Made by a program: the position numbers and the translations under genes. From contig NZ_VLKK01000002.1 of NCBI RefSeq assembly GCF_007830065.1, positions 310,001 to 374,000 of the forward strand: DNA of 64,000 bases. The letters are read 5' to 3'. Under the pieces are notes generated by a model. That model was not told where the DNA came from and made no database searches. It saw only the letters and a program-made list of their open reading frames with translations. The DNA comes from Sphingobium wenxiniae. Lineage in GTDB: Bacteria > Pseudomonadota > Alphaproteobacteria > Sphingomonadales > Sphingomonadaceae. Each line of letters opens with the position of its first letter. Positions within the stretch are counted from its first letter, which is position 1. Shown piece after piece: positions 23,974 to 63,550 of this stretch.

Positions 23974-26225
23974 CAGAACCGCGTGCTCAGCTCGACGCCA
24001 TAAGTCCGCGGGTCGTTCAGGGCCGCCACCCGGTCATTGGTCAACCCGCTGCCTCCAAAGTTGAATCGGAAGGTCTGGAAATCCTCATTGAACAGGTTTT
24101 TGCCCCAAAGCGACAGGGAAAGCTTGGGCGCGCCGCCCAGCGCGATGTCCGCCAGGGTGATGCGCGCATTGGTCAGCAGATAACTGTCGGCCAGGACCGG
24201 CGAGCTCGCGCTTGTCGGGAAAGTGCCGGAATAGTTGAAATCGGCATGCAGTTTCAAGGTCATGTCGCCGACGGGCACGGCATAGTCCGCCGAAAGACTG
24301 GCGGCATTGCGCGGCGTGAATGCGGGACGCAGGTTCGCCAGGACGCCGCTGAACGGGTTGACGAGCGGCGGGATCTTGGCGTCGGTGAAGGAATAGCTGC
24401 CGGTCAGCGTGAATCCCTGGAGGGGCGCCAGGGTCAGGTCGACCTCGATACCCTTGATCTTCGCCGTCGCATTCGTGTTCAACGTTTCGACCGCGGATGG
24501 ATTGGCCGGATTGGAGAAATCGATCTGCATGTCGCGATAATCCATCGAATAGGCCGCGATGTTCAACCGCGCGCGCCGATCCCAGAATTCCGATTTCAGG
24601 CCGACCTCCCAGCTGCGCACTTCTTCTTCCGCAAAGGGACGGTATGTGGCCGACCGTCCATTGGCGCCGCCGGCCCGATAGCCGATGCTATATTTGGCAT
24701 AGGCGTTCACGTCGCGGCTGAAGTCGAAAGCGATCGTGGCCATCGGGTCCAATCGCGACGAGGTGAATTGATAGGTCAGCGCCGCCGGCGCCCCGCGCAG
24801 CAACGGGATGCGGCCATGTTTCTTGTCGTGGGTGTAACGCAGGCCCCCTGTCAAGTGAAGGCGTTCGTCCAGAATGGCCGGCGTCCAGGTCGCCTGCCCG
24901 AACAGGGCGCGTGATCGTGCGTGGTTATCCGACGCCCGATCGGGCCAGACGCCGCCCGACGGCGGATTGTTCACCGTATAGGCCGTTCCATCGTCGTTCC
25001 AGCGATAGACGAAGGAGGCATAGGCCCAGTCGCTGGCGTCCTCGTTGAACAAATAGGCGCCGAGCACATAGTTGAGGTGATCCGTCGTGCCGATCAGTTG
25101 CAGTTCCTGGCTGAACTGATCCTGGTCGACCCGCGCGGCGCTGCTGCGGGCGAAATTGCCGTTCGGGCGATATCCGGTCTGATGCCCTATGTCATTGTCC
25201 TCCTGGGTTTGGGACAATTTGCGATAGGCGGTGATCGACCGCAGGGTCAGCGCGTCGGAAAGCTCCCAGCTCGCGTTGAGGCTATGCCCTGAAACCTTCG
25301 CGACGCTCGGCTCCAGCGGCACGCCGATCCGCGCCCGGCGGACACGATCGGGTTCAAGGGAAAAGATGGGCGGAAGGGCGATCGGGGCGCCTCCTGCTAT
25401 GGTGCCTTCGATCTGCATATAATTGGGGCTGGAGCGATCCCGGGAGACATCGAACGAATAGAGCAGTTCGATGGCGTCGGTCGGCTGCCAGAGCGCCTGG
25501 GCGCGAAAACCCTCCCGGCGATAGGCGCCCCAATCCCATGCCCCGCGCAGCGGATTGTCCACCAGCCCGTCGCGCCGCGACACCATGCCGTCCAGCTTGA
25601 TGCGGATGCCGGCGAATTCGGGCAGATTGACATGCGCCTCCGCAGTGCGTCCGTCATAATTGGCCAGGCCCACCTTGGCGTCGACCCCGAACTCGCCGCT
25701 CGGGCGCTTCGATATGATGTTCAGTGCGCCGCCCACGGCGTTGCGGCCGAACAGCGTGCCCTGGGGACCGCGCAAGACCTCGATCCGCTCCAGATCGAAC
25801 AGTTCGGTGCCCAGCCCCTGGACGCGGGCGAGATATACGCCGTCCACATAGAGCGCGATGGCGCCGTCACGGCTGATCTGGGTAGCGTCGCCGGAGCTGA
25901 TGCCGCGCATGGCGATGTTGAGGGCGGATGGCCGGCCCGAAAATGGCGCGATGCGCAAGGACGGAATAGCGCCGCCCATCAGATCGCGAAGCCCGGTGAT
26001 GCCCTGCTGTTCCAGCGCCGACTCGCCCAGCACCGACATGGAGATCGGCGTGTCCTGGATATTTTCCGCGCGCTTCTGCGCGGTCACGATGATCTCTTCC
26101 AGTCCGCTATGCTGTTCGGCCGCGTCCTGCGCCCGGACTTCGGCCAATGGCATGGCCAACAACGATACGCCCGCGGCCAGAGCCGTCCGAAAATTCGTTC
26201 TTGCAAGAATTTGCACGAGATGCAT
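23973..26225 (-). CDS. TonB-dependent outer-membrane receptor
   Basis: A 750-residue receptor. It has a signal peptide (cleavage near RAQ, residue 33), TonB box LEEIIVTA at 42-49, a plug with VLRGPQGTLFGRNAVGGALN and a barrel ending in a terminal Phe (ELSTRF). GGAGG lies 6 bases before ATG 26225, which decides the start over two upstream in-frame options. It is translationally coupled to the lipoprotein phosphatase and lies downstream of a double-TetR regulator on the same strand. The imported substrate is unknown. Confidence 0.93.
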   Translation of the reverse strand: MHLVQILARTNFRTALAAGVSLLAMPLAEVRAQDAAEQHSGLEEIIVTAQKRAENIQDTPISMSVLGESALEQQGITGLRDLMGGAIPSLRIAPFSGRPSALNIAMRGISSGDATQISRDGAIALYVDGVYLARVQGLGTELFDLERIEVLRGPQGTLFGRNAVGGALNIISKRPSGEFGVDAKVGLANYDGRTAEAHVNLPEFAGIRIKLDGMVSRRDGLVDNPLRGAWDWGAYRREGFRAQALWQPTDAIELLYSFDVSRDRSSPNYMQIEGTIAGGAPIALPPIFSLEPDRVRRARIGVPLEPSVAKVSGHSLNASWELSDALTLRSITAYRKLSQTQEDNDIGHQTGYRPNGNFARSSAARVDQDQFSQELQLIGTTDHLNYVLGAYLFNEDASDWAYASFVYRWNDDGTAYTVNNPPSGGVWPDRASDNHARSRALFGQATWTPAILDERLHLTGGLRYTHDKKHGRIPLLRGAPAALTYQFTSSRLDPMATIAFDFSRDVNAYAKYSIGYRAGGANGRSATYRPFAEEEVRSWEVGLKSEFWDRRARLNIAAYSMDYRDMQIDFSNPANPSAVETLNTNATAKIKGIEVDLTLAPLQGFTLTGSYSFTDAKIPPLVNPFSGVLANLRPAFTPRNAASLSADYAVPVGDMTLKLHADFNYSGTFPTSASSPVLADSYLLTNARITLADIALGGAPKLSLSLWGKNLFNEDFQTFRFNFGGSGLTNDRVAALNDPRTYGVELSTRF

Positions 26226-57480: not shown

Positions 57481-58257
57481 GTGAGGCGGCGGCGCACCAT
57501 CCCGCGCGGCTTGCGCCGGGGGATCACCCTGCGGATGGTCGCGCCCAACGCCGTCACGGCGATGGCGCTGTGCTTCGGCCTGACCGGCGTGCGCTACGGC
57601 ATTTCGGGCGAGTGGGAGAGGGCGGTGCTCTCCATCCTGTTCGCGGGCGTGCTCGATGGGCTGGACGGACGGATCGCGCGGCTGCTGCGCGGGGAGAGCC
57701 GATTCGGCGCGGAACTGGATTCGCTGTCCGATTCGATCGCCTTCGGGGTCGCGCCGGCGCTGATCCTGTATCTCTGGTCGTTGCAGGCCATGCCGAAATT
57801 CGGCTGGATCTTCGCGCTCGCCCATGCACTGTCCTGCGCCCTGCGCCTCGCGCGCTTCAACGCCAATATCGACGCGGATGAGCAGCCGCATAAATCGGCG
57901 GGCTTTCTCACCGGCGTTCCGGCGCCTGCGGGGGCAGGCATTGCCTTCATGCCGATGTATCTGTGGCTGGTGACGGGGGAGCCGATTTTCCGTGAATGGT
58001 ATGTGGTCGCGCCCTGGGCCGCCTTTACCGCGTTCCTGATGATCTCCAGCGTCGCGACCTATAGCTGGTCGGCGCTGCGCTTGCGGAAACGGATCAGGCT
58101 GGAGGCCATCGCCCTTGCCGGCCTGCTCGCGGCGTTGCTGATCAGCGATCCGTGGCTAACGCTGCTGGTCCTGTGCGCTGGCTATATCGCGACCATTCCG
58201 TTTGGCATGTTGTCCTATGCCCGGATCAGGCATCAGCAATTAAATGCTGTTTCCTGA
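57481..58257 (+). CDS. pssA: CDP-diacylglycerol-serine O-phosphatidyltransferase
   Basis: A 258-residue membrane protein with the CDP-alcohol phosphatidyltransferase motif DGLDGRIARLLRGESRFGAE... LDSLSDSIAFG (DGxxAR-x8-Gx3Dx3D) and multiple membrane helices. It makes phosphatidylserine for Psd, so psd-pssA form the PE pathway. The start is a GTG at 57481. Convergent with the small membrane protein gene. Confidence 0.94.
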   Translation: MRRRRTIPRGLRRGITLRMVAPNAVTAMALCFGLTGVRYGISGEWERAVLSILFAGVLDGLDGRIARLLRGESRFGAELDSLSDSIAFGVAPALILYLWSLQAMPKFGWIFALAHALSCALRLARFNANIDADEQPHKSAGFLTGVPAPAGAGIAFMPMYLWLVTGEPIFREWYVVAPWAAFTAFLMISSVATYSWSALRLRKRIRLEAIALAGLLAALLISDPWLTLLVLCAGYIATIPFGMLSYARIRHQQLNAVS

Positions 58258-58270
58258 CATTCGCCCAGAT

Positions 58271-58498
58271 TCATGCCGCCATGGCGTGAACGGGAGAGGT
58301 TCGCGCGCCTGGCCGCTCCCCGGCCGATGCACGGCGGCGGCTGATTCGCAGGCGATAGACCGGCCTTTCCTGCGGGATCGGCTCGAACAGCAGCGCGGCG
58401 ACCATCTTGTCGCGGTAAAGCGCGAACATTCCGATGATCGTGGCGGCCGCCAACAGGAAGGAAGCGAAGAAAACAACTGCTGCGACGAGGGTGAACAT
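58271..58498 (-). CDS. Small single-pass membrane protein under a LexA-like box
   Basis: A 75-residue unrecognised protein: MFTLVAAVVFFASFLLAAATIIGMFALYRDKM with one strong helix (about 2-27), then ALLFEPIPQERPVYRLR and a basic tail. The positive residues after the helix predict an outward N-terminus and cytoplasmic C-terminus. Upstream on its strand (58583-58597) is a perfect GTTC-N7-GTTC SOS box, overlapping the -10 area of a TTGACG promoter. Short SOS-induced membrane proteins that halt division (SidA type) are known in Caulobacter; this one is not visibly homologous. Convergent with pssA. Confidence 0.7.
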   Translation of the reverse strand: MFTLVAAVVFFASFLLAAATIIGMFALYRDKMVAALLFEPIPQERPVYRLRISRRRASAGERPGARTSPVHAMAA

Positions 58499-58582
58499 GA
58501 CGTTCGCTTTCTATCTTGCCATTCGCACGGCTTGACCCAGTATGATGGCGCAAACGGCCCGAAATGGCCTTTTGTTCCGAAT

Positions 58583-58597
58583 GTTCTCTATATGTTC
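58583..58597 (-). promoter_or_regulatory. LexA (SOS) box, alphaproteobacterial type
   Basis: GTTCTCTATATGTTC on the plus strand, that is GTTC-N7-GTTC, the alphaproteobacterial LexA consensus (GAAC-N7-GAAC on the minus strand). It lies 85 bases upstream of the small membrane protein. On the minus strand TTGACG (58615-58610) is followed about 17 bases later by an AT-rich -10-like element inside the box. A third GTTC lies at 58574-58577. Confidence 0.7.
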
Positions 58598-58748
58598 TAT
58601 TCTCGCCGGAGCGTCAAGCCCTCTTGCATCGCCGCGCGCGCGCCGCTAAAGGCCCGCCCTATTCCACATGGGAATCGCACATATCCGGTGCCGCAGGCTT
58701 CCTTCGGTTCCTGATTCCCAGAGGCATCAACCGGAAGGAGAAGAAGTT

Positions 58749-59507
58749 ATGGCGACTCCTGTCGTCTCCATGAATCAGTTGATCGAGGCCGGCGCGCATT
58801 TCGGCCACCAGACCCACCGCTGGAATCCGCGCATGAAGCCGTATATCTTCGGCGAGCGCAACGGCATCCACATCCTCGACCTGTCGCAGACCGTGCCGCT
58901 CTTCGCGCGCGCCCTGGACTTCGTGTCGGGCACGGTCGCCGCGGGCGGCAAGGTTCTGTTCGTCGGCACCAAGCGCCAGGCGCAGGACCCCATCGCCGAA
59001 GCCGCGCGCAAGTCGGGCCAGCATTTCGTCAACCATCGCTGGCTGGGCGGGATGCTCACCAACTGGAAGACGATCAGCCAGTCGATCAAGCGTCTGAAGA
59101 CCTTGGAAGAGAAGCTGTCGGGCGACACCCACGGCCTCACCAAGAAGGAAGTCCTTCAGATGACCCGCGAGCGCGAGAAGCTGGAGCTGTCGCTCGGCGG
59201 CATCCGCGATATGGGCGGCATCCCCGACGTGATGTTCGTGATCGACGCCAACAAGGAAGAGCTGGCGATCAAGGAAGCCAACACGCTGGGCATCCCGGTC
59301 GTCGCGATCCTCGATTCGAACGTCTCGCCCGACGGCATCGCCTTCCCGGTTCCGGCGAATGACGACGCCAGCCGCGCGATCCGCCTTTACTGCGACGCCA
59401 TCGCCACGGCAGCGACCAAGGGCAACCGTGGCGCGCAGCAGGCCGCCGGCGTCGACCTGGGCGCTCTGGACGAGCCCGAGGCCGAAGAGGTCGTCGCGCA
59501 AGCCTGA
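58749..59507 (+). CDS. rpsB: 30S ribosomal protein S2
   Basis: A 252-residue S2: [63 protein letters not shown], and an acidic C-terminal tail. GGAAGGAGAAG lies before the ATG. First gene of the rpsB-tsf-pyrH-frr-uppS-cdsA-dxr cluster. The 250-base upstream region includes the SOS box and the divergent promoter. Confidence 0.98.
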
Positions 59508-62773: not shown

Positions 62774-63550
62774 ATGACGAACGAATTGCGAACGCGGACG
62801 GTCGTCGGATTGGCTCTGATAATCGTGGCGCTCGGTGCGCTGTGGATGGGCGGCTTCCCCTTCTGGCTGCTGCTGGTCGTGGCGGGCGTGCTGATGCAGG
62901 GGGAATGGGGCCTTTTGGTCGGGGCGTCCGAACAGCATCGGAAGATGGCGATGTTCGCCGTTTCCGTGCCGCTCGCCATTTTGTGCCCCCTGGCGGCAGG
63001 CGTGTCGTGGGTCGCTTTCGTCCTGATGGCCACCGCGTTCTTCTTCGTGCTGCTGACGGCGCGCTCGTTCGCTCTGGCGCTCGGCATATTATATGTCTGC
63101 GTGCCGGTCATGGCACTGCTGCTGCTGCGCGGGCAGGCGCCGGACGGACAGGGACTGCTGCTGGCCTTCTGGGCGCTTTCGCTAGTGTGGGCGACGGACA
63201 TCGGGGCCTATTTCGCGGGCCGTTCCATCGGCGGGCCGAAGCTCGCCCCGCGCGTCAGCCCATCGAAGACATGGGCGGGGCTGGCCGGCGGCGTGCTGGC
63301 GGCGCTGCTGACCGGATTTTTGCTGCATCGTTTCGCGGGCCTGCCGATCCAGCTTGCCGCCGCCAGCGGCCTGCTGGCCGTGGCGGCGCAGCTTGGCGAT
63401 CTGCTGGAAAGCGGGATGAAGCGCCGCGCGGGCGTCAAGGACAGCGGCAATCTGCTGCCCGGTCACGGTGGGGTCATGGACAGGCTGGACGGCGTGGTTG
63501 CCGCCGCGCCGCTTGCCGCCGCGTTTTTCCTGCTGCTGGGTGCGGCATGA
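62774..63550 (+). CDS. cdsA: Phosphatidate cytidylyltransferase
   Basis: A 258-residue integral membrane enzyme with seven or eight helices and the CDS signature SPSKTWAGLAGG plus KDSGNLLPGHGGVMDRLDG. It makes CDP-diacylglycerol, the substrate for PssA upstream in this window. It starts 4 bases after uppS; no strong Shine-Dalgarno, likely coupled. Confidence 0.95.
   Translation: MTNELRTRTVVGLALIIVALGALWMGGFPFWLLLVVAGVLMQGEWGLLVGASEQHRKMAMFAVSVPLAILCPLAAGVSWVAFVLMATAFFFVLLTARSFALALGILYVCVPVMALLLLRGQAPDGQGLLLAFWALSLVWATDIGAYFAGRSIGGPKLAPRVSPSKTWAGLAGGVLAALLTGFLLHRFAGLPIQLAAASGLLAVAAQLGDLLESGMKRRAGVKDSGNLLPGHGGVMDRLDGVVAAAPLAAAFFLLLGAA

Follow-up and report, generated by a model that had tools for sequence, protein, structure and literature searches.

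Small membrane proteins that inhibit cell division after DNA damage have been described in several bacteria. SidA, encoded by locus tag CCNA_02004 in Caulobacter crescentus (PMC10769358), is a 29-amino-acid inner-membrane SOS inhibitor of FtsW, and GTTC-N7-GTTC is the published LexA site of Caulobacter (PMC4211646). DidA of the same species (CCNA03212) is a damage-induced division inhibitor of 71 amino acids with one transmembrane helix; it is SOS-independent and activated by DriD (PMC4211646). In Bacillus subtilis, the SOS-induced, single-transmembrane division inhibitor YneA binds TM7 of FtsW through its transmembrane domain (PMC13396833). SosA of Staphylococcus aureus is an SOS-induced small membrane protein whose turnover requires its extracellular C-terminus, the presumed substrate for processing by CtpA (PMC6851548). 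AlphaFold 3 models have placed SidA, SosA and ChiZ on FtsW, although their authors do not regard these models as of high confidence (PMC13396833).

We analysed a 64-kb window, the whole stretch of DNA considered here, from the genome of Sphingobium wenxiniae, and focused on a small gene divergent from rpsB that encodes a predicted single-pass membrane protein of 75 amino acids. The protein resembles DidA in size and in its one transmembrane helix, but its gene has a conserved LexA-type box in the core promoter, a feature that speaks against LexA-independent induction of the DriD kind. With SosA it would share SOS induction, small size, membrane location and possibly a C-terminus that controls turnover, a likeness by description between proteins of different phyla. 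With YneA it would share SOS induction and a single transmembrane segment, whereas a predicted disordered basic tail takes the place of the periplasmic LysM domain of YneA. In the open-access literature, outside which most subscription journals fall, our searches gave no previous account of the gene, no mitomycin C study of a sphingomonad and no described SOS-induced division inhibitor of sphingomonads.

Layout and conservation of the locus

The small gene lies between rpsB and a CDP-alcohol phosphatidyltransferase gene, which we take to be pssA (Table 1). The preliminary description of this DNA had reported an exact LexA box, a minus-strand TTGACG hexamer and an open reading frame for a 75-residue single-pass protein. 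All three are present where it had placed them, and a single transmembrane helix is predicted for the product.

Table 1. Features of the small gene, its promoter and its neighbours (positions within the window)
Feature	Position	Strand	Basis and remarks
Gene for small single-pass membrane protein, 75 amino acids	58271..58498	-	Open reading frame and genus orthologues; monocistronic, convergent with pssA
LexA box GTTCTCTATATGTTC (gene strand GAACATATAGAGAAC)	58583..58597	-	Exact GTTC-N7-GTTC; kept in genus and family
-35 hexamer TTGACG	58610..58615	-	TTGAC close 5' of the box in family loci
Putative -10 CATATA, within the LexA box	58589..58594	-	Read from the sequence
Third GAAC half-site, 5 nt past the LexA box	58574..58577	-	Kept in genus
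Putative ribosome-binding site AGAAAG	58507..58512	-	Most genus members have an AGAAAG-like run of purines at about this place
Candidate rpsB promoter, outside the box and back to back with that of the small gene	58624..58652	+	Read from the sequence and from further promoters
rpsB (ribosomal protein S2), divergent neighbour	58749..59507	+	Open reading frame list, rpsB loci
pssA-like CDP-alcohol phosphatidyltransferase gene, convergent neighbour	57481..58257	+	tblastn against family loci; family-wide
Predicted transmembrane helix (residues 2-27); a short helix comes next (29-37)	58418..58495 (transmembrane helix)	-	AlphaFold2, hydropathy
C-terminal Met-Ala-Ala, ssrA-like, degron-like end	58274..58282	-	Family C-termini; degradation presumed

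The DNA upstream of rpsB, used as a query, matched all 31 genomes of the genus. The exact box occupies the identical place in each of the 30 genus loci read, a count that is unconditional, and all 30 also have a divergent open reading frame, with 81-87 nt between box and ATG. TTGAC is kept in the aligned genus promoters, and a GAAC half-site lies 4-5 nt beyond the box in 29 of the 30 members. Over codons 1-42 of the genus orthologues, mean pS is 0.577 and mean pN 0.186. The resulting pN/pS is 0.32, whereas the other two frames give 1.11 and 1.52; the open reading frame is a real, constrained gene under purifying selection. Joint conservation of box and gene, a check that the preliminary description had named, was borne out: the box is kept upstream of the orthologues and travels with the gene.

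A search with the single protein and one with a profile did not extend beyond a few genera, as the protein, to judge from its sequences, diverges fast across the family, and we therefore relied on synteny with rpsB. The box-to-rpsB pattern was present in 50 of 250 genomes and 25 of 96 genera (reversed control, 0). A survey independent of the box covered the region upstream of rpsB in 96 genomes of the Sphingomonadaceae from about 95 genera, roughly one per genus. The exact box lies 150-330 nt before the GAHFGH motif of S2 in 69 of the 96, compared with one each for the reversed motif and for GAAC-N7-GAAC in the same interval; the other 27 loci had no exact box there. Nearly all box-bearing loci have a divergent open reading frame for a single-transmembrane protein of about 65-110 amino acids (median 79), and 10 of the 69 contain more than one exact box. 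Spacers and distances vary between genera. The invariance of the half-sites in the family promoter analysis is not evidence, as those loci were anchored on the box.

None of 36 genomes belonging to other families in the order has the box, and a spurious 42-amino-acid open reading frame was the only candidate there; half of these loci have a DnaE match (tblastn) directly upstream of rpsB. The small gene is also absent from beside rpsB in the family genera that have dnaE upstream of rpsB (L305, L306 and L309). Given these absences, the unit of box and small gene looks specific to the Sphingomonadaceae. We infer that it most likely arose after the link between dnaE and rpsB was broken within the family. 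One of the loci in which dnaE is kept beside rpsB (L306, genome G053) has a LexA-type box upstream of dnaE and no clear small open reading frame. Plasmids searched for the protein gave no match.

The arrangement of the promoter is also conserved. On the strand of the small gene, TTGAC occurs no more than 30 nt 5' of the box in 64 of the 69 family loci (background, 2.9%), and the box either fills the spacer between the -35 and -10 elements, with a gap of mostly 3-6 nt after TTGAC, or covers the -10 element, with a gap of about 14 nt. A repressor acting on the small gene would be expected to bind at these positions. The small gene carries a predicted LexA operator within its promoter, and SOS control of this membrane protein gene through LexA is very probable.

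Features of the protein

The preliminary description had recognised no homology for the protein, and our searches of Pfam and NCBIfam agree with this: they gave no family for the window protein or for the family alignments, and one member reached a marginal E value of 0.0092. Family libraries miss the gene because it is so short and fast-evolving. AlphaFold2 (alignment A1) predicts helices at residues 2-27 and 29-37, with a mean pLDDT of 94-98 over residues 1-30, and a disordered tail after them; the hydropathy maximum is 2.67. No second transmembrane segment was found in 74 family proteins, so that the prediction throughout is of a small protein with one transmembrane helix. Basic residues follow this helix, in a basic tail about 45 residues long, and the positive-inside rule leads us to expect an N-out, C-in orientation. 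In the family survey, the last ATG near the transmembrane segment was taken as the start, a choice that biases the count of uncharged N-termini, and we thus argue topology mainly from the genus sequences.

The C-terminus is strongly shared. Two alanines end 68 of the 74 family proteins, and three alanines end 49, whereas only 10 of 76 PssA proteins from the same loci and 3 of 42 long open reading frames of the window end in AA. Such C-terminal alanines are known ClpXP/ssrA-type signals. The conserved end may be a degron through which the protein is turned over.

A profile built from the genus detects about 19 proteins from other loci at the inclusion threshold. We used this comparison in place of the match between the A1 and A3 profiles, which is inflated because both alignments include the window protein. 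A second main type of protein, tied to the first mainly by position, has a conserved D-S and R directly after the transmembrane segment, and the two main types align with an hhalign probability of 52%, over the transmembrane region only. As this similarity is weak, we group the proteins across the family mainly by position, box and architecture.

Proposed role in division

We propose that the gene encodes a family-specific SOS checkpoint protein that is repressed by LexA, blocks late division and is timed by a degron, and we assign this explanation as a whole a probability of roughly 0.57. In the undamaged cell, LexA bound to the core-promoter box would keep the small gene off and leave the oppositely directed rpsB uncovered. 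DNA damage would lead to cleavage of LexA and expression of the protein of roughly 75 amino acids, which would insert its one N-terminal transmembrane helix, probably N-out, with the disordered basic tail in the cytoplasm. The helix would most likely bind and block a late divisome component and so delay septation. FtsW is the leading candidate, by comparison with SidA (PMC4211646) and with YneA and the AlphaFold 3 models of SidA, SosA and ChiZ (PMC13396833). The -AA end would act as a degron, of ClpXP type if the tail is cytoplasmic, and inhibition would thus end soon after LexA is restored.

Given SOS control, we regard inhibition of division as reasonably likely. The role is plausible in that it fits the size, the single transmembrane helix, the LexA operator and the degron-like tail, and it has its analogues in SidA, YneA and SosA. 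A more specific version, that of a checkpoint protein restricted to the Sphingomonadaceae and unrelated to SidA, N-out and C-in, with degron-timed release and an origin at the time when the dnaE-rpsB linkage broke, is one that we advance tentatively.

Alternatively, the gene may encode an SOS-controlled membrane protein that acts outside the divisome, on the envelope or the proton-motive force, in the control of lipids or transport, or as a growth-arrest toxin. In E. coli, the SOS response induces the small membrane proteins TisB and HokE, and the gene studied here appears to share their regulation and size class; the regulatory evidence fits such a role equally well. However, pore-like toxins do not typically have a basic tail about 45 residues long or a conserved -AA end, and late division is the target of the known SOS-induced single-transmembrane proteins of Caulobacter, Bacillus, Staphylococcus and Mycobacterium (PMC13396833). 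We consider a role outside the divisome possible but doubtful.

Relation to SidA and assignment of the box

Caulobacter and Phenylobacterium encode a protein of 29-30 amino acids that ends in LVA or LAA and has a LexA-type box at a distance of 7-31 nt; its length, box and single transmembrane segment lead us to identify it as SidA. Its gene lies directly upstream of dnaE and 4-5 kb from rpsB (in Caulobacter, in the order sidA-dnaE-rpsB). SidA-type proteins are conserved across the genomes of the two genera (L197, L198, L200 and L205-L208). The gene of the window resembles sidA in having a GTTC-N7-GTTC-class box near its start, a single predicted transmembrane helix, a small product with alanine at its C-terminus (-LVA or -LAA in SidA) and the same broad genomic neighbourhood. 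It differs in length (75 as opposed to 29 amino acids) and in place, as it is found between pssA and rpsB, divergent from the latter, and not in the SidA-like position upstream of dnaE. Basic residues precede the transmembrane segment in SidA, which is apparently N-in, and follow it in the sphingomonad proteins. BLASTP gave no alignment between the window protein and SidA up to an E value of 100. The protein is not a detectable homologue of SidA; the two are alike in kind, which does not prove common descent. The parallel with SidA drawn in the preliminary description stands as far as a small membrane protein with a LexA box is concerned, and falls short in BLASTP similarity, predicted topology and genomic position.

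The protein could still be a diverged SidA orthologue that moved within the rpsB-dnaE neighbourhood, a proposal about descent that is compatible with the functional explanation preferred above. Both proteins have a single transmembrane segment, a LexA-type box (16-31 nt upstream of the SidA-type genes that lie behind dnaE) and a shared broad neighbourhood, and the alanine-ending C-termini of the SidA type point the same way. We nevertheless judge such descent unlikely, given the lack of sequence similarity, the basic residues on opposite sides of the helix and the family genera with linked dnaE and rpsB that are without the gene. In basal genomes of the family, a search upstream of dnaE for a SidA-like gene gave no clear candidate and no bridging form.

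The box might instead serve rpsB, with LexA tuning ribosomal protein S2 after damage and the small open reading frame incidental, as the box falls within the upstream region of rpsB in the 69 genomes. Two family genomes separate the possible targets. In one (G090), an open reading frame of 756 amino acids is inserted between rpsB and the unit, and in the other (G215) the fetched 6 kb contain no rpsB; both genomes keep the box beside the small gene, 37-63 nt from it, and the gene still faces pssA. The candidate rpsB promoter is directed away from the box, which lies beyond the far side of its -35 element. Together with the TTGAC on the strand of the small gene and the purifying selection on the open reading frame, this makes rpsB a very improbable target, and we rejected it.

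Exact GTTC-N7-GTTC matches number 3 in the window (1.29 expected) and 110 genome-wide, compared with 76 for the reversed motif; the bare motif is near chance and not significant alone. The significance of the box comes from its conservation in 30/30 genus loci and 69/96 family loci, against 1/96 for the reversed motif. Its spacer, TCTATAT, ranks second among 100 listed boxes of the genome under a profile of 80 boxes from the rpsB loci of the 96 family genomes, the window box itself among them. The first-ranked box of the same genome lies upstream of an imuA-like gene, whose product does not reach the curated cut-off for its family. A GTTC-N7-GTTC box (C5:98257-98271) also lies directly upstream of the lexA match, which starts at C5:98290. 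Although the window count of the motif is near expectation, a chance match, or binding by a regulator other than LexA, is scarcely credible in view of this conservation, its absence from the 36 genomes outside the family and the imuA and lexA boxes, and we rejected a chance origin on the conservation against controls.

Other LexA-type boxes were noted in the genome. The remaining two exact matches in the window (24985-24999 and 62779-62793) have poor spacer-profile scores and look like chance. A second, LexA-like protein of 205 amino acids, below the lexA cut-off, has a strong GTTC-N7-GTTC box of its own nearby (L045, G000:C3:259338-265352), and a LexA-type box lies 9 nt upstream of a PA0069-family radical SAM gene (L049, G000:C1:193000-198421). 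Another LexA-type box, with a good score, is found 111 nt upstream of a gene for an RlpA-family septal lytic transglycosylase (L057, G000:C29:10699-15713), a possible second SOS link to division.

Overall, we conclude that the small gene probably encodes a protein that pauses division during DNA repair. The finding provides one conserved locus as a specific candidate for the SOS division inhibitor of sphingomonads. It would open a new family in which to test the idea that independently evolved small transmembrane inhibitors converge on late division, and the conserved -AA end may offer a handle on how division arrests end.
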